Below, in pieces: positions 14,256 to 64,000 of a stretch of 64,000 nt of DNA. Source of the stretch: Salinibacterium sp. ZJ450. GTDB lineage: Bacteria > Actinomycetota > Actinomycetes > Actinomycetales > Microbacteriaceae. A model generated the notes under the pieces. The model had not been told where the DNA came from, did no database searches, and saw only the letters and a program-made list of their open reading frames with translations. Made by a program: the position numbers and the translations under genes. Position 1 is the stretch's first letter; every line of letters starts with the position of its first letter. The stretch spans positions 62,001 through 126,000 of the forward strand of contig NZ_CP061771.1 in the NCBI RefSeq assembly GCF_011751885.2, in the 5' to 3' direction.

Positions 14256-14377
14256 GCGGCATCCATTCGTAAGTGATTGTGAATAATATCGTGCAGAACT
14301 AGGCGCTTTATCTAACGAGAGTTGTGCCGCACACTATACGCAGCACGCACCCTGACCCCGATTTGCGAGGCAGATTC

Positions 14378-17300
14378 TTGAGTATTTCGCCCACTTCCTC
14401 GACCGAGGAGTTCCACGCCGGCGAGCTGTCCGACGAGGTCATCGCGACCGTGCGCCGCTGGCTCAGTGAGAGCACGGATGTCGCCACCGATGCCAGCGCC
14501 GCGCGCCTGGCCGGCGTGCTGAAAGACCCCAAGGGACTCGACTTCACCCTCGGCTTCGTCGACCGCGTGGTGCGGCCGGAGAACCTGCATGTGGCCGGCA
14601 AGAACCTCGAGCGGGTGAGCCACCTGGTGCCGTCGTTCCTGCCCTGGTACCTGCGCGGCGCGGTGTCGCTGGGTGGGGCGTTCGCGCCGCTGCTGCCGTG
14701 GCCGATCATCCCCACCGCGCGCACCGTGCTGCGCTCGATGGTGAGCCACCTCGTGATCGATGCCACCCCCGACAAGCTCGACAAGACCCTGGCGACGCTG
14801 CGCCAGCAGGGGGTGCGGCTGAACCTCAACCTGCTCGGCGAGGCCGTACTCGGCGACGCCGAGGCCGACAGCCGGCTGGCCGGAACCCGGCAGCTGTTGC
14901 AGCGCGACGACGTCGACTACGTCTCGATCAAGGTGTCGTCGATCGTCAGCCAGCTGAACATGTGGGCGTTCGACGAGACGGTGGAGCGAGTCGTGGAGCG
15001 ACTGACTCCGCTGTACCTGCTGGCCGCACGCGGCGGGCAGGGCAGCAAGTTCATCAACCTCGACATGGAGGAGTACCGCGACCTCGACCTGACGATCGCG
15101 GTGTTCATGCGGCTGCTCGATCAGCCGCAGCTGAAGAACCTCGAGGCCGGCATCGTGCTGCAGGCCTACCTGCCCGACTCGTTCGCGGCGATGCAGCGGC
15201 TGAACGCCTGGGCCACCGAGCGACGGCGGGCCGGCGGCGCCGGCATCAAGGTGCGCGTGGTGAAGGGCGCGAACCTCGCCATGGAGCAGGTCGACGCCAC
15301 GATGCACGGCTGGCCGCTCGCCACCTGGGGCAGCAAGGTCGAGACCGACACCAACTACAAGCGAATCCTGGACTGGGCGCTCACCCCGAACCGCACCGAC
15401 GCCGTGCGCATCGGCGTGGCCGGGCACAACCTGTTCGACCTGGCCTTCGCCTGGCTGCTGGCCAAGCGGCGGGGTGTGGAGGGCCGGATCGACGTCGAGA
15501 TGCTGCTCGGCATGGCCACCAGCCAGGCCGATGCCGTACGCCGCGACGTCGGCGGGCTGCTGCTGTACACGCCCGTCGTGCACCCGAAGGAGTTCGACTC
15601 CGCGATCAGCTACCTGGTGCGCCGGCTCGAGGAGAACGCCAGCCCGGAGAACTTCATGAGCGGCCTGTTCGACCTGGCCGAGCACGAGCCCGTGTTCCGG
15701 CGTGAGGCCAACCGGTTCCGGGCGTCCCTCGCGGCGCTCACGCCCGAGGTGCCGGCGCCGAACCGCGCGCAGGACCGCGGCGCGGTGCCCGCCTCGCTCG
15801 CGCCGACCACGTTCGCGAACACCCCGGACACCGACCCCGCGCTCGCCGCCAACCGCGCCTGGGGTCGGGCCATCCTCGAACGCAGCGCGTCGAGCACCCT
15901 CGGCATCGCCACGCTCGAGGCGGCGCGCATCCCGGACGAGACCAGGCTCGCCGACGCCATCGCCGCCGCCGTGCGCGCCGGCACCACCTGGGGTGCCACC
16001 CCGGCCGCCGACCGCGCCGCCCTGATCGACCGCGCCGGAGCGGAGCTCGAGGCCTCCCGCGCGAAGCTGATCGAGGTGGCCGCCGCCGAGACCGGCAAGA
16101 CCATCGCCGAGGGCGACGTCGAGGTGAGCGAGGCGGTCGACTTCGCGCACTACTACGCCGCCCAGGCGCGCCTGCTCGACACGGTAACCGGCGCCCGCTT
16201 CGTGCCCTCCACACTCACCGTGGTAACCCCGCCGTGGAACTTCCCGATCGCCATTCCCACCGGTTCGGTGCTGGCGGCGCTCGCCTCGGGCAGCGCGGTG
16301 ATCATCAAGCCCGCTCGCACCGCCCGGCGTACCGCAGCCGTGATGGTCGAGGCGCTCTGGGCGGCCGGCATCCCGCGCGACCTGCTGGTGCTCGCCAACC
16401 TCGACTCCGGCACGCTCGGCAAGCAACTGGTGGCGCACCCCGCGGTCGAGCGGGTGATCCTCACTGGCGGATACGAGACCGCCCAGATGTTCCGCTCCTG
16501 GCGGGCCGACCTGCCGCTGCTCGCCGAGACCAGCGGCAAGAACGCCATCATCGTCACCCCGCACGCCGACCTTGACCTCGCCGCGAACGACGTGGTGAAG
16601 AGCGCGTTTGGGCACGCGGGGCAGAAGTGCTCGGCGGCATCCTTTGTCATCCTGGTCGGCTCGGTCGCCACCTCCGACCGCTTCCGCCGGCAGCTGATCG
16701 ACGCGGTTAAGACGCTGCGGGTCGGGATGCCGGATGACCCGACGACGATCATGGGGCCGGTGATCGAGAAGCCGACCGGCAAGCTGCTCGCCGGGCTCAC
16801 CCAGCTCGGCGCCGGGGAGACCTGGCTGGTGGAGCCGCGACAGCTCGACGACAGCGGCCGGCTCTGGTCGCCGGGGGTGCGGGACGGCGTGGCGCCCGGC
16901 TCGGAATACCACCGCACCGAGTACTTCGGCCCGATCCTCGGCATCATGACCGCGCGCACCCTTGAGGACGCGATCGAGCTGCAGAATGCCCCCGCGTACG
17001 GGCTAACCGCGGGCATCCACTCACTCGACGCCGACGAGGTCGCCCTCTGGGCCGAGCGGGTGCAGGCCGGCAACCTCTACGTCAACCGTGGTATCACCGG
17101 CGCGATCGTGCAGCGGCAACCGTTCGGCGGCTGGAAGCGCTCCTCGGTGGGGGCCGGCGCGAAGGCCGGCGGCCCGAACTACCTGCTCACGCTGGGCTCG
17201 TGGGAGCCGGTGGATGCGCCACCCAAGTCGAACCTGCGGCTGACCGGGCTGGCCCGTTCCGTGACCTCGGTGATCACCGCCGCGCAGCCCGGCATGGACT

Positions 17301-17857
17301 ACCTCGAGTTCGACCGGGTGCGGCAGGCTGCCGAGGACGACAGCCGGGTGTGGGCCGAGGAGTTCGGCATCTCGAAGGATGTCTCGCAGCTGGGCGTGGA
17401 GCGCAACGTGTTCCGGTACCGGCCGGTTCCGGTCACCCTGCGGCTCGCCGAGGGCGCCTCGATCGGCGACCTGGTGCGGCTGATCGCCGGGGCCACCCTT
17501 GCCGGCGCCAGCATCGACATCAGCTCGGCTGTGGTGCTGCCGGCGGAGCTGGCCACCCTGATCGCCGGTCCGGAGTCGCCGGTCACGGTCGGCTCGCTGA
17601 TCGTGGAATCCGACGCGCGCTGGCACGTGCGGGTGGCATCCGGAGCGCTCACCACGCATCGGGTGCGGCTGATCGGCGGATCGGCAGCCGATCTGGCCAC
17701 CGCCTTGGGCGGGTCACCGGATGTCGCGATCTACGCAGGCCCGGTCACCACGGCCGGCCGGGTGGAGTTGCTCGCCTTCCTGCACGAGCAGGCGGTGTCG
17801 GTGACCGCGCACCGCTTTGGCAACCCCGACCGGATGATGCAGGAGCTGCCGCTGTAG
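14378..17857 (+). CDS. putA: Bifunctional proline dehydrogenase / L-glutamate gamma-semialdehyde dehydrogenase
   Basis: Oxidises proline to glutamate in two steps, the first at a flavin and the second with NAD+. The proline dehydrogenase barrel covers roughly residues 20-450 (LNLLGEAVLGDAEAD, KFINLDMEEYRDL, GMATSQADAVRRD). The aldehyde dehydrogenase domain follows: PPWNFPIAIPTG, then Glu717 in LAETSGKN and catalytic Cys751 in HAGQKCSA. About 190 C-terminal residues form an extra domain. I choose the TTG at 14378, seven bases after GCGAGG; the frame reaches back to a GTG at 14324. It has no N-terminal DNA-binding domain, consistent with control by the divergent LysR gene. Its second activity can also take up semialdehyde from the ornithine aminotransferase at 26.5 kb. 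Confidence 0.95.
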   Translation: MSISPTSSTEEFHAGELSDEVIATVRRWLSESTDVATDASAARLAGVLKDPKGLDFTLGFVDRVVRPENLHVAGKNLERVSHLVPSFLPWYLRGAVSLGGAFAPLLPWPIIPTARTVLRSMVSHLVIDATPDKLDKTLATLRQQGVRLNLNLLGEAVLGDAEADSRLAGTRQLLQRDDVDYVSIKVSSIVSQLNMWAFDETVERVVERLTPLYLLAARGGQGSKFINLDMEEYRDLDLTIAVFMRLLDQPQLKNLEAGIVLQAYLPDSFAAMQRLNAWATERRRAGGAGIKVRVVKGANLAMEQVDATMHGWPLATWGSKVETDTNYKRILDWALTPNRTDAVRIGVAGHNLFDLAFAWLLAKRRGVEGRIDVEMLLGMATSQADAVRRDVGGLLLYTPVVHPKEFDSAISYLVRRLEENASPENFMSGLFDLAEHEPVFRREANRFRASLAALTPEVPAPNRAQDRGAVPASLAPTTFANTPDTDPALAANRAWGRAILERSASSTLGIATLEAARIPDETRLADAIAAAVRAGTTWGATPAADRAALIDRAGAELEASRAKLIEVAAAETGKTIAEGDVEVSEAVDFAHYYAAQARLLDTVTGARFVPSTLTVVTPPWNFPIAIPTGSVLAALASGSAVIIKPARTARRTAAVMVEALWAAGIPRDLLVLANLDSGTLGKQLVAHPAVERVILTGGYETAQMFRSWRADLPLLAETSGKNAIIVTPHADLDLAANDVVKSAFGHAGQKCSAASFVILVGSVATSDRFRRQLIDAVKTLRVGMPDDPTTIMGPVIEKPTGKLLAGLTQLGAGETWLVEPRQLDDSGRLWSPGVRDGVAPGSEYHRTEYFGPILGIMTARTLEDAIELQNAPAYGLTAGIHSLDADEVALWAERVQAGNLYVNRGITGAIVQRQPFGGWKRSSVGAGAKAGGPNYLLTLGSWEPVDAPPKSNLRLTGLARSVTSVITAAQPGMDYLEFDRVRQAAEDDSRVWAEEFGISKDVSQLGVERNVFRYRPVPVTLRLAEGASIGDLVRLIAGATLAGASIDISSAVVLPAELATLIAGPESPVTVGSLIVESDARWHVRVASGALTTHRVRLIGGSAADLATALGGSPDVAIYAGPVTTAGRVELLAFLHEQAVSVTAHRFGNPDRMMQELPL

Positions 17858-21824: not shown

Positions 21825-22136
21825 CCCATAACCATGTCAGGAGTCGAAGCCCAAACCCACCGCGTCCAGCGTTTTCAGGATCAGGTTGCGGCGGCCGCCG
21901 TGTCACAACGATTGGACTGGGTGCCTGTAGCTAATCGGCCGCGAGCTGCCAAATCCGTAGAAATGGGCGGGTTAGCGCCCCTAAATCGTCCGTCGGTGCC
22001 AGACGGGCTAAATTTCTGACGCGTGGAAGAATTGCCAAATTTCTGCTGCACGATCCCCGCAGAATGGCTTGTTTTGCCTCGAGAGTTGATGCCACGGCCC
22101 GACAGGCGGGCCACCAAGCATGTACCGGAGGCACCG
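21825..22136. promoter_or_regulatory. ramB-aceA divergent control region
   Basis: This 312-base gap has no convincing gene. It contains two direct copies of GCYAAATTTCTG, at 22007-22018 and 22034-22045, spaced 27 bases start to start. A partial inverted version, GCCAAAT then AGAAAT, lies near 21950. The aceA ribosome-binding site GGAG is at 22127-22130. The repeated AT-rich motifs in otherwise GC-rich DNA are the best candidates for RamB or another carbon-control regulator. Confidence 0.55.
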
Positions 22137-23429
22137 ATGAGCACCACTCGCCCAGGCGACCAGACCCAGACCGCGGCCGAGCTGGAGACCCAGTGGAAGA
22201 CCGACGCCCGCTGGAGCGGTATCACCCGCAACTACTCGGCCGAAGATGTCATCGCCCTCCGTGGATCGGTTCGCGAAGACCGCACGCTGGCCCGCCGCGG
22301 CGCCGAGAACCTGTGGAAGTACATCCAGGAGGAGCCGTTCGTGAACGCGCTCGGCGCCCTCACCGGCAACCAGGCGGTTCAGCAGGTGCGCGCCGGCCTG
22401 AAGGCGATCTACCTCTCCGGCTGGCAGGTTGCCGCCGACGCGAACCTGTCTGGCCAGACCTACCCGGATCAGAGCCTGTACCCGGCCAACTCGGTTCCCG
22501 CGGTGGTGCGTCGCATCAATAACGCGCTGCTGCGCGCCGACCAGATCGAGGTCGCCGAGGGCGGCGAGGTGCGTGACTGGCTGCAGCCGATCGTCGCCGA
22601 CGCCGAGGCGGGCTTCGGCGGACCGCTGAACGCCTACGAGCTGATGAGCTCGATGATCGAGGCCGGCGCCGCGGGCGTGCACTGGGAAGACCAGCTGGCC
22701 AGCGAGAAGAAGTGCGGCCACATGGGCGGCAAGGTGCTCATTCCCACCAGCCAGCACATCCGCACCCTGAACGCGGCCCGTCTGGCAGCGGATGTCGCGG
22801 GCGTGCCCTCGATCATCATCGCCCGCACCGACTCGCTCGCCGCGAACCTGATCACGAGCGACGTCGACGACCGCGACAAGCCGTTCCTCACCGGTGACCG
22901 CACCGCCGAGGGCTTCTACAAGACCAACCCCGGCATCGACACCGTGATCAGCCGCGGACTCGCCTACGCGCCGTACGCCGACCTGATCTGGGTGGAGAGC
23001 GCCGAGCCCGACATCGAGCTCGCCCGCACCTTCGCCGAGGCGATCCACAAGGAGTTCCCCGGCAAGAAGCTCGCGTACAACTGCTCGCCGTCGTTCAACT
23101 GGAAGCGTCACCTCGACGACGACCAGATCGCCCGCTTCCAGAAGGAGCTCGCGGCGATGGGCTACGCCTTCCAGTTCATCACCCTGGCCGGCTTCCACGC
23201 CCTGAACCACTCGATGTACACGCTGGCGCGCGACTACAAGGAGCGTCAGATGAGTGCATACGTCGAGCTGCAGGAGGCCGAGTTCGCCTCCGAGGCAGAC
23301 GGCTACACCGCCACCAAGCACCAGCGAGAGGTGGGCACCGGGTACTTCGACCGGATCGCCACGGCGCTCAACCCTGACAGCGCAACCCTCGCCCTCGTTG
23401 GCTCCACCGAGTCCGAACAATTCCACTGA
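22137..23429 (+). CDS. aceA: Isocitrate lyase
   Basis: Cleaves isocitrate to succinate and glyoxylate, the first step of the glyoxylate shunt used for growth on acetate and fatty acids. The signature KKCGHMGGK carries catalytic Cys193; [19 protein letters not shown] and TLAGFHALN are further conserved blocks. With the ATG at 22137, preceded by CGGAG, the protein is 430 residues, normal for the bacterial group. The open frame reaches upstream to 22023 but without family sequence. It faces ramB and is followed on the same strand by malate synthase. Confidence 0.97.
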
Positions 23430-23443
23430 TTTCACACCTCGCC

Positions 23444-23482
23444 GGTTGAGGAGCGCGCGACCGGGTCGCCCGCTCCTCAACC
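23444..23482. repeat. Intergenic palindrome GGTTGAGGAGCG ... CGCTCCTCAACC
   Basis: Perfect 12-base arms (23444-23455 and 23471-23482) with a 15-base GC-rich loop lie between aceA and aceB. GGTTGAGGAGCG is a motif I associate with dispersed palindromes in many actinobacterial genomes. It may attenuate read-through so that aceB is made at a different level, or act as a 3' end for aceA. Confidence 0.6.
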
Positions 23483-23508
23483 AGCCGCACTTCTGAAAGG
23501 CCACGACC

Positions 23509-25128
<1,620 letters not shown>

Positions 25129-25137
25129 CCCGTTGGC

Positions 25138-25165
25138 TGACTCCCCACCCAGCGGTGGGGAGTCA
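25138..25165. terminator. Hairpin terminator between aceB and the Lrp gene
   Basis: TGACTCCCCACC and GGTGGGGAGTCA form a perfect 12-base stem with a 4-base loop just after the aceB stop. The end of the convergent lrp gene lies inside the right arm, so the same hairpin can serve both transcripts. Confidence 0.78.
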
Positions 25166-25600
25166 GCTGCGGTCGCGCTGCACCAGGCTCGACAGCACGA
25201 TCGCGCTGCGGGTGTGGTCGACGTTGGGGGCGATGCGCACCCGCTCCAGAGCGTCTTCCAGGCTCGGGATGTCGCGGCTCCTCAGGTGCACGATGGCATC
25301 GGCGGACCCGGTCACGGTGCCCGCGTCGACGATCTCCGGCACCCCGTTCAGGATGCGCCGCAGCTCGTCGGGGGCCACGGTGCCGCGGCAGAACAGCTCC
25401 ACGTATGCCTCGACGGCGAGCCCCTCCACGGCCGGATCCACCTGCACAGTGAAGCCGCGGATGACGCCATCGGCCACCAGTCGGTCCACCCGGCGCTTCA
25501 CCGCCGACGCTGACAACCCGACGACCTCACCGATATCCCCATAGCCCGCCCGCGCATTTTGCCGCAGCAGGGAGATGATGCCGTGATCGAGGTTGTCCAT
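25163..25600 (-). CDS. Lrp/AsnC family transcriptional regulator
   Basis: A 145-residue protein with an AsnC-type helix-turn-helix at residues 1-55 (LDHGIISLLRQNARAGYGDIGEVVGLSASAVKRRVDRL) and a RAM ligand-binding domain after residue 65. It probably responds to an amino acid such as arginine or ornithine, since it is divergent from genes for arginine and ornithine breakdown. The ATG at 25600 is chosen over the long frame to 25789: TATTGT lies 7 bases upstream, giving a leaderless-type start, inside a GCAACAA/TTGTTGC palindrome. Confidence 0.9.
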   Translation of the reverse strand: MDNLDHGIISLLRQNARAGYGDIGEVVGLSASAVKRRVDRLVADGVIRGFTVQVDPAVEGLAVEAYVELFCRGTVAPDELRRILNGVPEIVDAGTVTGSADAIVHLRSRDIPSLEDALERVRIAPNVDHTRSAIVLSSLVQRDRS

Positions 25601-25604
25601 GCCA

Positions 25605-25626
25605 GCAACAATAGAAGATTTGTTGC
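25605..25626. promoter_or_regulatory. Candidate Lrp operator (GCAACAA-N8-TTGTTGC)
   Basis: Perfect 7-base inverted arms separated by 8 bases lie immediately upstream of the lrp start and overlap its minus-10 hexamer. The size and AT-rich centre suit an Lrp/AsnC dimer site controlling lrp and the divergent arginine genes. Confidence 0.6.
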
Positions 25627-25703
25627 GATCGCCGGGGTTGACGCGATCATATAGTGCGTGGAGTTCCCGAAAACTTGCGAGACGAGCGTGTGAGTATGGA
25701 GGC

Positions 25704-26558
25704 ATGACCTTGACTGACACCGAATCCGCTGCCGTCGACCAGGTGCCGACGAAGCCGAGCGTGCTCATGTGCCGGCCCACGTACTTCACCGTGAGCTACC
25801 GGATCAACCCGTGGATGTTCCCGGAGCTCCCGACCGACACCGACCTGGCGCTCAGCCAGTGGCAGTCCCTCCACGACACCTACGTCGGTCTCGGCTACGA
25901 CGTGAACCTGATCGAGCCCGTCGAGGGGCTGCCCGACATGGTCTATGCCGCGAACGGCGGGTTCGTGATCGACAACATCGCGTACGGCGCCAAGTTCACC
26001 CACGTGGAACGGCAACCCGAGGGTCCGGCGTACATGGACTGGTTCCGCGCGAACGGGTTCGACGTGCGCGTGCCGGACGACATCAACGAGGGCGAGGGCG
26101 ACTTCCTGCTGGTGGGCGATGTCATACTCGCCGGCACCGGCTTCCGCAGCGCCTCGAGCAGTCACAAGAAACTGGCGAGAATCTACGGCCGTGAGGTCGT
26201 CACGCTGAACCTGGTGAACCCCAACTTCTATCACCTCGACACCGCCGTCGCCGTGCTGAACCAGTCGTCGGAGGGCCGCCCGGCCAACATCGCCTACCTG
26301 CCGAGCGCGTTCGACCGACCCTCGCTCGACATCCTGCGCACGCGGTATCCGGATGCAGTCATCGTCACCGAGGAAGACGCCGCCGTCCTCGGCTTGAACA
26401 GCTTCAGCGACGGCCAGAACATTGTCATCGCGTCCCGAGCCCTCGACTTTGAGCGGCAGCTGCGCGAACGCGGCTACAACCCGATCGGCGTCGACCTGTC
26501 GGAGCTGCTGCGCGGAGGAGGAGGAGTGAAATGCTGCACCCTGGAACTTCGTCGGTGA
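25704..26558 (+). CDS. Guanidine-modifying enzyme, probable arginine dihydrolase (annotated family: DDAH-like)
   Basis: A 284-residue enzyme of the arginine deiminase/dimethylargininase fold. The catalytic triad elements are visible: Glu-Gly-Asp at 131-133 (GEGDFLL), His177 in NFYHLDTA and Cys277 in GGGGVKCCTLEL. Asn35 in RINPWM and Asn84 in VYAANGGFV match, as I recall, the asparagines that mark cyanobacterial arginine dihydrolases (ArgZ/AgrE), which turn arginine into ornithine, CO2 and two ammonia. That would feed the ornithine aminotransferase that overlaps its 3' end by 28 bases. Classic dimethylargininase, giving citrulline, is the alternative. GAGTAT stands 6 bases before the ATG, with GGAGG closer than a normal ribosome site. 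Confidence 0.8.
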   Translation: MTLTDTESAAVDQVPTKPSVLMCRPTYFTVSYRINPWMFPELPTDTDLALSQWQSLHDTYVGLGYDVNLIEPVEGLPDMVYAANGGFVIDNIAYGAKFTHVERQPEGPAYMDWFRANGFDVRVPDDINEGEGDFLLVGDVILAGTGFRSASSSHKKLARIYGREVVTLNLVNPNFYHLDTAVAVLNQSSEGRPANIAYLPSAFDRPSLDILRTRYPDAVIVTEEDAAVLGLNSFSDGQNIVIASRALDFERQLRERGYNPIGVDLSELLRGGGGVKCCTLELRR

Positions 26559-27835
26559 CCGCCGGCGACCTGACGCCGGCAACCGCCGCCGCGATCGAAC
26601 TCGAGGAATCGCACGCCGCGCACAACTACCACCCGCTGCCGGTCGTGATCAGTCACGGCGAAGGCGCGTGGGTGACGGATGTCGACGGCAAGCGCTACCT
26701 GGACTGCCTCGCCGCGTACTCGGCCGTGAACTTCGGCCACAGCAACCCGGTGCTGGTGGATGCCGCCAGAGCGCAGCTTGGGAAGATCACCCTGACCAGC
26801 CGCGCGTTCCACAACGACCAGCTCGGTCCGTTCGTGACGGCGCTCGCCGGGCTCGCCGGAAAAGACATGGTGCTGCCGATGAACACCGGCGCCGAAGCGG
26901 TGGAGTCGGCGATCAAGATCGCCCGTGCCTGGGGATACCGGGTGAAGGGTGTCGAGCCGGACAAGGCCACCATCATCGTGGCGGACGGCAACTTCCACGG
27001 CCGCACCATCAGCATCATCAGCTTCTCCAACGACCCCGACGCCCGCAACGACTTCGGGCCGTACACGCCGGGGTTCATCAGCGTGCCCTACGGCGACGCG
27101 CACGCGCTCGAGGAGGCGATCGACGAGAACACCGTCGCCGTGCTGATCGAGCCCATCCAGGGTGAAGCGGGCATCGTGATCCCGCCGGCCGACTACCTGC
27201 CGAGGCTGCGCGAGATCACCAAGCGCCGCAACGTGCTGCTGATCGCCGACGAGATCCAGTCCGGCCTCGGCCGCACCGGCGCCACCTTCCAGTGCGACAA
27301 CGTGGGCGTCGTGCCCGACCTCTACCTGCTCGGCAAGGCGCTCGGCGGCGGCATCGTGCCGATCAGCGCCGTCGTCGGCGACGCCGACATCCTAGGCGTG
27401 CTGAAACCCGGCGAGCACGGCTCCACCTTCGGCGGCAACCCGCTGGCCACCGCGGTCGGCCACGCTGTGGTGCGGATGCTCGGCAGCGGCGAATACCAGG
27501 AGCGGGCCAGACGGCTCGGCCGCGTCCTCGAGGACGGCGTGCGGCAGATGCTCGGTCGCGGCGTCGTCGATGTGCGCGCCGCCGGACTGTGGGTCGGCAT
27601 CGACATTGATCCGCAGCTCGCCAGCGGTCGCCGCGTCTGTGAATTGCTGATGGAGCGCGGGGTGCTCGCGAAGGACACCCACGGGTCGACCATCCGCCTG
27701 GCGCCGCCGCTCGTGGTCACCGCCGAAGACCTCGAGTTCGCCGTGGAACAGCTCGGAGCCGTGCTGGATGAGCTGGCTGCCGGCCGGGTGTCCCCGGTGT
27801 CGGAGGAGGAGGACACCGCGGCCGACCTGCCGTAG
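26531..27835 (+). CDS. rocD: Ornithine--oxo-acid aminotransferase
   Basis: A 434-residue class III aminotransferase that converts ornithine to glutamate gamma-semialdehyde. NTGAEAVESAIKIARAWGY binds the cofactor phosphate, ADEIQSGLGRTG holds the PLP-stacking aspartate and LLGKALGGG the PLP-bearing Lys269. YSAVNFGHSNP and NFHGRT support the ornithine-specific subgroup. The start overlaps the upstream gene by 28 bases after GGAGGAGG, so the pair is translationally linked. Its product spontaneously forms pyrroline-5-carboxylate, which PutA can oxidise. The last 35 residues are an acidic extension (SEEEDTAADLP). Confidence 0.93.
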   Translation: MLHPGTSSVTAGDLTPATAAAIELEESHAAHNYHPLPVVISHGEGAWVTDVDGKRYLDCLAAYSAVNFGHSNPVLVDAARAQLGKITLTSRAFHNDQLGPFVTALAGLAGKDMVLPMNTGAEAVESAIKIARAWGYRVKGVEPDKATIIVADGNFHGRTISIISFSNDPDARNDFGPYTPGFISVPYGDAHALEEAIDENTVAVLIEPIQGEAGIVIPPADYLPRLREITKRRNVLLIADEIQSGLGRTGATFQCDNVGVVPDLYLLGKALGGGIVPISAVVGDADILGVLKPGEHGSTFGGNPLATAVGHAVVRMLGSGEYQERARRLGRVLEDGVRQMLGRGVVDVRAAGLWVGIDIDPQLASGRRVCELLMERGVLAKDTHGSTIRLAPPLVVTAEDLEFAVEQLGAVLDELAAGRVSPVSEEEDTAADLP

Positions 27836-63512: not shown

Positions 63513-63763
63513 CTAAGCCGAGCCGCTCCACGGCGCGGGAACCAGTACCCACAGCACGACCGCCGGTCCGCTGCCCTCAACCTGCCAGGTGTGGGGCTCA
63601 CGGCCCGGAAAGGCCAGGGAGTCGCCGGCAGCGAGAACACCTGGCGCAGCTGCACGAACGTCGCCACACTCGGTGATGTCTCGTCTCGCTCGACCCGACT
63701 CAGAAAACCCTTTGCTGAGGCCCGTTGTCTCGGCGAAGGCGGCGGCGTAGCTTGATCGCAAAG
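63513..63763 (-). pseudogene. Remnant of an XRE-cupin (PuuR-like) regulator
   Basis: Two minus-strand frames together give a recognisable regulator. One reads ETTGLSKGF, then the frame shifts and the other gives LSRVERDETSPSVATF and VQLRQVFSLPA, the standard end of an XRE helix-turn-helix. The first frame resumes as AAGDSLAFPGREPHTW and ends LWVLVPAPWSGSA, the last part of a cupin domain. Most of the cupin between them is missing; the join CTGCCGGCGA can be read as either side, as expected for a deletion between short repeats. The N-terminus is also degraded. Intact relatives often neighbour polyamine or agmatine genes, and an agmatinase gene starts 30 bases away. Confidence 0.72.
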
Positions 63764-63792
63764 TGTCTAGACAGGATCGATGGTCGCCCGAT

Positions 63793-64000
63793 ATGCAACC
63801 CGCTGATGGAGTCGTGCCGACGGAGCCCCGAGGGCCGGTGGACGCGAGCGTCGTGCCGCGATTCGCCGGCATCGCAACCTTCGCGCGCCTTCCGCGCCTC
63901 GACGAGGTTGAGCGCGCGAATATCGCGATCGTGGGTGTCCCGTTCGACAGCGGTGTCAGCTACCGACCGGGGGCTCGCTTCGGTCCCGCGCACGTTCGTG
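63793..64000 (+). CDS. speB: Agmatinase / ureohydrolase family protein, 3' end outside the window
   Basis: An open frame from the ATG at 63793 runs to the window edge. [14 protein letters not shown] and [19 protein letters not shown], then AHVR, are the N-terminal signature of agmatinases of the arginase superfamily, which release urea from agmatine to give putrescine; the manganese ligands lie further on, outside the window. An upstream ATG at 63779 is closed by a stop after eight codons. The divergent pseudogene is the probable remains of its regulator. Related guanidino substrates such as guanidinobutyrate are possible. Confidence 0.85.

Follow-up and report, generated by a model that had tools for sequence, protein, structure and literature searches.

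Gene organization of the locus

The stretch of DNA analysed here (the window; 64,000 nucleotides) comes from Salinibacterium sp. ZJ450, whose genome assembly is one 3.83 Mb contig that is 99.3% complete. In this window, a gene that carries the database label dimethylargininase is followed by rocD, the gene of ornithine aminotransferase, and is faced by a divergent gene of an Lrp/AsnC-family regulator (Table 1). The first-pass annotation, made from the letters alone, had proposed that the labelled protein may be an arginine dihydrolase, which would convert arginine directly to ornithine for RocD. The predicted activity is supported by the fold, the tree, the residue pattern and the gene partners presented below, and we consider the protein very probably a single-domain arginine dihydrolase that feeds RocD, its reaction, mechanism, regulation and physiological role being what we infer here.

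Translation of the open reading frame (ORF), with residues counted from ATG 25704, places the motif RINPWM from residue 33 (Asn35) and the motif VYAANGG from residue 80 (Asn84), as first described. The start codon of rocD sits inside the dihydrolase gene, and the ORF coordinates confirm the overlap of 28 bases. The run GGAGGAGGAGGAG resembles a Shine-Dalgarno sequence and would serve rocD, and it doubles as the coding sequence of the Gly-rich loop preceding Cys277. A GGAGG is located one base ahead of ATG 25704 (25698-25712), so the true start of the dihydrolase gene may be TTG 25710. The divergent gene encodes an HTH_AsnC-type domain and an AsnC ligand domain, in agreement with its assignment as an Lrp regulator. 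The PutA noted near 14.4 kb corresponds to a PutA-like ORF with a dehydrogenase region, which scores below the equivalog cut-offs. The genes of isocitrate lyase and malate synthase (22023-25128) are situated immediately upstream of the Lrp/dihydrolase/rocD cluster.

Table 1. Features of the dihydrolase locus and a possible downstream gene in the window
Feature	Position	Strand	Evidence or remark
Candidate stand-alone arginine dihydrolase, 284 aa (label dimethylargininase, NF045659)	25704..26558	+	ORF, profile, alignment
RocD, ornithine aminotransferase, 434 aa	26531..27835	+	TIGR01885, 481.3 bits vs cut-off 378.4
Lrp/AsnC-family regulator, divergent from the dihydrolase gene	25163..25600	-	HTH_AsnC-type and AsnC_trans_reg (ligand) domains
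Divergent promoter region, 103 bases	25601..25703		Between the Lrp/AsnC and dihydrolase genes
GGAGGAGGAGGAG, Shine-Dalgarno-like run, putatively for rocD	26514..26526	+	Sequence
PutA-like protein, L-glutamate-semialdehyde (P5C, 1-pyrroline-5-carboxylate) dehydrogenase region at residues ~538-957	14324..17857	+	Possible downstream step

Among solved structures the labelled protein is closest to ArgZ and AgrE

The protein matches the NCBIfam model NF045659, 'dimethylargininase', at 409.8 bits (cut-off 300). Among 11 plasmid relatives sharing at least 46% identity, five are annotated as 'dimethylargininase' and six have no annotated feature in a gene table that describes itself as incomplete; the automatic label had thus been foreseen correctly. 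Since NF045659 is an equivalog model, the match would make the protein a true dimethylargininase (DDAH), which releases citrulline and methylamines from methylated arginines. Superfamily and fold are indeed shared with DDAH, and a review keeps the DDAH label for the Mycobacterium tuberculosis protein (PMC11008464). However, the other two DDAH models are missed by far, with 62.6 of 340 bits for NF045660 and 21.8 of 450 bits for NF045658. The doubtful element is the name of NF045659, a model name that includes Mtb, and not the match to it, and the family is very likely mislabelled.

When the window protein was searched against PDB sequences, the matches with significant E values were ArgZ and AgrE (8e-44 to 1e-39); DDAH reached 0.068 at best. 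A profile of 26 sequences gave the same order, with ArgZ at 3e-84, AgrE at 2e-80, the best DDAH at 6e-17 and the best deiminase at 2e-6. The structure of the window protein was predicted with a mean pLDDT of 87.5 and a pTM of 0.87, and a fold search with this model returned ArgZ/AgrE chains in all top 13 places (best E 2.7e-27, TM-score 0.87, 32-35% identity), the first DDAH following at an E value of 8e-16 and 18% identity. In the alignment, Asn84 faces a Ser in the ArgZ chain 6juz, titled N71S, and Cys277 is aligned with the substituted Ser in chain 6jv1 (C264S). Asn35 would correspond to the residue that we take to be N22 of ArgZ, which fits a constant offset of 13. The asparagines that the first-pass annotation had named for ArgZ/AgrE do stand opposite Asn35 and Asn84. 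Moreover, Asn35, Asn84, Glu129, Asp133, His177 and Cys277 are all invariant across alignments A1 and A2, of which A2 was built from loci retrieved with patterns containing both Asn. With the model matching ArgZ, the protein thus has the catalytic Cys, the His and the acidic residues within a pentein fold.

An asparagine separates the family from DDAH-type and deiminase-type proteins

The residue pattern was examined in 246 genomes of the phylum, each at least 90% complete, which were searched with the NF045659 profile, a profile not tied to these Asn. The family set comprised 32 proteins, of which 25 (the window protein among them) exceed the NF045659 cut-off and seven fall below it at 31-35% identity; three contig-end fragments in two genomes (G021 and G241) were left out. 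All 32 carry Asn at both sites. As a contrast, 20 weaker NF045659 matches were taken, 12 of which group as DDAH-type. The Asn84 site is Asp in all 12, and the NF045660 cut-off is passed by all five of them that were scanned. The remaining weaker matches have Asp at this site in seven cases and Asn in one (L051). Asp is likewise present in 8/8 deiminase-type proteins, a set drawn from 12 loci with four members over and four under the TIGR01078 cut-off. In contrast, Escherichia coli AstB, a dihydrolase from a different branch, carries Asn110 at the Asn84 site, like ArgZ and AgrE. In addition, the EGxGD motif of the family is one residue longer than the EG-GD/DG-GD of DDAH-type and deiminase-type proteins. 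The Asn conservation in the 80 named loci described below was rejected as evidence, because the search patterns contained those Asn.

Phylogenetic analysis of 63 proteins gave a tree in which a single branch (bootstrap 100, SH-aLRT 97) parts all 27 Asp proteins from all 36 Asn proteins. L051, a divergent relative found in genome G111, has Asn at the two aligned positions, and its genome has an arginase over the cut-off; it may represent another dihydrolase class.

An alignment with ArgZ/AgrE, DDAH and arginine deiminase had been proposed as a check, with aspartates at both positions in the closest characterised dihydrolases as the contrary outcome. The alignment gave the opposite: the Asn are shared with ArgZ and AgrE, both of which have Asn at the two positions, and Asp is found in DDAH-type and deiminase-type proteins. 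DDAH activity of the window protein is accordingly very unlikely in our view, as the DDAH-type Asp is replaced by Asn in 32 of 32 family proteins and the window protein falls on the other side of the well-supported branch. Furthermore, three genomes (G023, G172 and G094) carry the family gene plus a separate NF045660-passing protein without adjacent rocD, and citrulline would be useless to RocD.

rocD is the usual neighbour of the candidate dihydrolase gene

To describe gene context only, 80 named loci were retrieved with patterns including the Asn. rocD is the next gene on the same strand in 64 of them, and 31 have a divergent Lrp relative (at least 45% identity) no more than 2.5 kb away. The dihydrolase/rocD overlap is conserved: in the 24 named loci whose RocD alignment extends to residue 1, it measures exactly 28 bases in 16 and 25-37 bases in the other eight. 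In the 246-genome sample, 17 of the 25 over-cut-off gene copies (window included) adjoin rocD, as do four of the seven distant relatives at 31-35% identity, and none of the 20 weaker relatives has rocD in the roughly 1 kb of flank covered on either side. An NF045659 gene over the cut-off is present in 22 of the 246 genomes and RocD over the cut-off in 41, with both in 20. Arginase over the cut-off is present in 35 genomes, none of which has an NF045659 gene or RocD over the cut-off; the absence of a recognised arginase in all 22 NF045659 genomes is weak on its own, because the 35 arginase genomes belong to other families.

A shared operator in the divergent promoter was sought as inverted repeats and common 7-mers in 31 regions, taken from the Lrp-dihydrolase gaps of 31 named loci and the window after one region of more than 420 bases was dropped, and none convincing was found. 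At one locus (L063, genome G143), where the dihydrolase gene also has a divergent Lrp gene, an amino acid permease gene takes the position of rocD. Three genomes (G104, G153 and G192; L055-L060) have two over-cut-off NF045659 copies each.

Ornithine cyclodeaminase may take the place of RocD

In Demequina aurantiaca (L141), the gene next to the dihydrolase gene encodes an ornithine cyclodeaminase (Pfam 387 bits; NF005762 545.7 bits vs 350), the same kind of domain as that fused to the dihydrolase in ArgZ/AgrE. Of the 15 genomes without adjacent rocD, three have RocD over the cut-off elsewhere, in one of them with a stop within the gene. A strong cyclodeaminase is present in 10 of the 12 genomes without RocD (at least 373 bits) versus 4 of the 67 with RocD (354-398 bits), the latter being the 64 with adjacent rocD plus the three with RocD elsewhere, and L101, which is cut off, being left out (Fisher p 4e-8, uncorrected for kinship). 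When the fetched loci were searched for relatives of the L141 cyclodeaminase, none was found outside L141 and L153, where it lies 4.6 kb away; therefore, the pairing is mostly by presence and not by neighbourhood. A Pfam scan of 20 downstream ORFs from the 15 loci without adjacent rocD gave one cyclodeaminase, the rest being unrelated or unmatched. The window genome has RocD, and a genome search listed no cyclodeaminase-family match in it. Contrasts within Frigoribacterium (L091 and L099 vs L103) and Agromyces (L082 vs L084) suggest more than one exchange event.

RocD and ornithine cyclodeaminase both consume ornithine, and neither uses citrulline. This shared use of ornithine is the strongest genomic argument for ornithine as the product of the family. 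The substrate might instead be a different guanidino compound, such as a modified arginine, which the protein, as a dihydrolase, would convert to ornithine or a derivative. AstB shows that dihydrolases of the superfamily can take a modified arginine, and the extra copies in some genomes have different neighbours. However, both RocD and the cyclodeaminase act on free ornithine, and the M. tuberculosis gene is required for growth on free arginine (PMC4569260); this alternative appears most improbable.

Other arginine enzymes in the window genome

If the protein acted like an arginine deiminase and stopped at citrulline, ornithine would have to be made later by other enzymes. The protein does match the Pfam family ADI weakly (26.2 bits vs a cut-off of 22.8), though a search of the window genome with Pfam ADI and TIGR01078 listed no ADI-family match, and the Cys-His chemistry is common to both kinds of enzyme. 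Against this stands the Asn in place of the deiminase Asp, that of the ArcA-type FTRD motif. Moreover, the window genome has no carbamate kinase over the cut-off (32 bits against 358) and hence lacks any known catabolic conversion of citrulline to ornithine. In four other genomes the family gene occurs together with an ArcA-like gene, which is over the TIGR01078 cut-off of 489.1 bits in G038 and scores 440-479 bits in G023, G009 and G050. We therefore regard a citrulline-forming enzyme as very improbable. In G038 (L067; G038:C1:1203610-1208242), the gene of the arginine deiminase that passes the TIGR01078 cut-off is located about 1.4 kb past the rocD of a dihydrolase-rocD pair.

The first-pass annotation had also described the pathway as free of arginase. 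The arginase model gave five matches in the window genome, none over its cut-off, and the four arginase-superfamily genes comprise one agmatinase, one hutG-like gene below the cut-off and two others, L004 and L005. With the arginase model (cut-off 227.6), these two give 70.9 and 67.9 bits, and they reach no curated NCBIfam cut-off. With two arginase-like genes remaining, the absence of arginase is likely and not proven. The agmatinase gene (L002; TIGR01230 234.7 bits vs 174.3) extends past the right end of the window (~63750-64000 and beyond) and is a possible second arginine/agmatine route.

Proposed pathway and its weighing

We propose that the window protein catalyses the reaction L-arginine + 2 H2O -> L-ornithine + 2 NH3 + CO2. 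The mechanism of ArgZ/AgrE, for which PDB titles and one cited title ('bond rotation') were also helpful, serves as the model. By analogy, Cys277 would attack the guanidinium carbon, one ammonia would leave and water would attack; because Asn84 and not Asp would hold the guanidinium nitrogens, the intermediate could then turn and lose the second ammonia. The ornithine would be passed to RocD, encoded by the overlapping gene, to yield glutamate semialdehyde/P5C, which a dehydrogenase such as that of PutA may oxidize. The divergent Lrp/AsnC protein probably turns the operon on when arginine is present, and in relatives ornithine cyclodeaminase may replace RocD as the ornithine consumer.

Several observations weigh against this proposal. 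The window protein reaches only 184.3 bits on the arginine dihydrolase model NF052232 (curated cut-off 450), and it is a single-domain protein without the ornithine cyclodeaminase domain of ArgZ/AgrE, in line with 181.1 bits of 1025 on NF052231 (bifunctional ArgZ). The tree is unrooted and AstB and L051 are long-branched, so that the Asn side is a split rather than a demonstrated clade, and the window protein is not grouped with ArgZ alone. L004 and L005 could also make ornithine. rocD is not adjacent in 15 of the 80 named loci, one more being cut by a contig end, and rocD is likewise missing next to eight of the 25 copies over the cut-off (one of the eight is on a short contig); these include both copies of G104 and one each of G153 and G192, which have unrelated neighbours. 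As to the exchange of partners, the 350-bit line for a strong cyclodeaminase was set after the gap from 354 to 239 bits had been seen, two of the 12 RocD-less genomes (L085 and L139) also lack a strong cyclodeaminase, and G259, counted as RocD-positive, has a stop inside its RocD gene. The co-occurrence and partner counts treat genomes as independent, ignoring kinship, and some genomes are drafts or metagenome-assembled genomes. Finally, no arginine assay of any family enzyme was found in the literature searched.

Genetic data from M. tuberculosis also speak for the proposal. According to Hampel et al. (2015; PMC4569260), arginine strongly induces the cluster Rv2323c, rocD and rocE, beside the regulator gene Rv2324, and an Rv2323c mutant shows poor growth on arginine and forms little proline from this substrate, keeping some nitrogen uptake from arginine through another path. 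The same study reports that ornithine in M. tuberculosis is almost wholly derived from arginine, yet no arginase homologue is present; the ornithine-forming step was left open, with an unrecognised arginase or an amidinotransferase named as possible. An arginine dihydrolase would explain this result. The first-pass annotation had spoken of a hidden arginine pathway in an actinobacterium; its dihydrolase is supported, and the cluster itself is not new, as one of the same order was described in M. tuberculosis in 2015. The NnhA paper (PMC11659421) remarks that a larger, uncharacterised group of proteins clusters with the bifunctional ones. In the literature searched, which included few subscription papers, none was found that identifies the actinobacterial family as an arginine dihydrolase.

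It is likely that the whole Mtb-named NF045659 family is a widespread actinobacterial arginine dihydrolase and supplies the first step that has been missing from arginine use without arginase, exchangeable in its coupling to RocD or cyclodeaminase, with the ArgZ/AgrE fusion as one fixed form. If this is true, a large gene family would receive a corrected automatic name, with the Asn/Asp site as a simple annotation rule, and arginine dihydrolases would reach from cyanobacteria into actinobacteria. The arginase-free formation of ornithine from arginine, open since 2015, would become directly testable, and claims that such bacteria degrade methylated arginines with this enzyme would lose their sequence basis.

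Comparison with known systems

E. coli AstB, the N-succinylarginine dihydrolase, resembles the window protein in the Asn at the aligned site and in its type of reaction, and differs from it in length (447 aa), in its strong divergence (end branch 5.3) and in its substrate, succinylarginine. The DDAH enzymes (Pseudomonas 1h70/3rhy, human DDAH1 and the Streptomyces-type NF045660) share the superfamily, the Cys-His chemistry and the fold (TM-score ~0.77). They have only 16-18% identity to the window protein, however, and the DDAH-type proteins have Asp at the Asn84 site and no rocD neighbour.

The M. tuberculosis cluster Rv2324/Rv2323c/rocD/rocE is similar in that a regulator gene stands by a DDAH-labelled gene and rocD, a likeness drawn from gene order and the NF045659 name. 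That cluster is also required for arginine use in an organism without an arginase homologue (PMC4569260); different from the window, its rocD is frameshifted.

The closest known enzymes, ArgZ (Synechocystis Sll1336; 6juy, 6juz, 6jv0 and 6jv1) and AgrE (Anabaena Alr4995; 6lrf-6lrh), are dihydrolases joined to ornithine cyclodeaminase. The window protein resembles them over the whole length of the fold (TM-score ~0.87) at 32-35% identity, with both Asn, the Glu, the His, the Cys and the EGxGD loop in common, and is likewise coupled to an ornithine-consuming activity. Different from ArgZ and AgrE, it is actinobacterial, is below the cut-offs of NF052232 and NF052231, and consists of a single domain, the partner being a separate RocD here and a separate cyclodeaminase in some relatives. 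As read here, the known kind of enzyme is arginine dihydrolase, and the variant is a single-domain, actinobacterial form with an exchangeable ornithine exit, in a mislabelled family.

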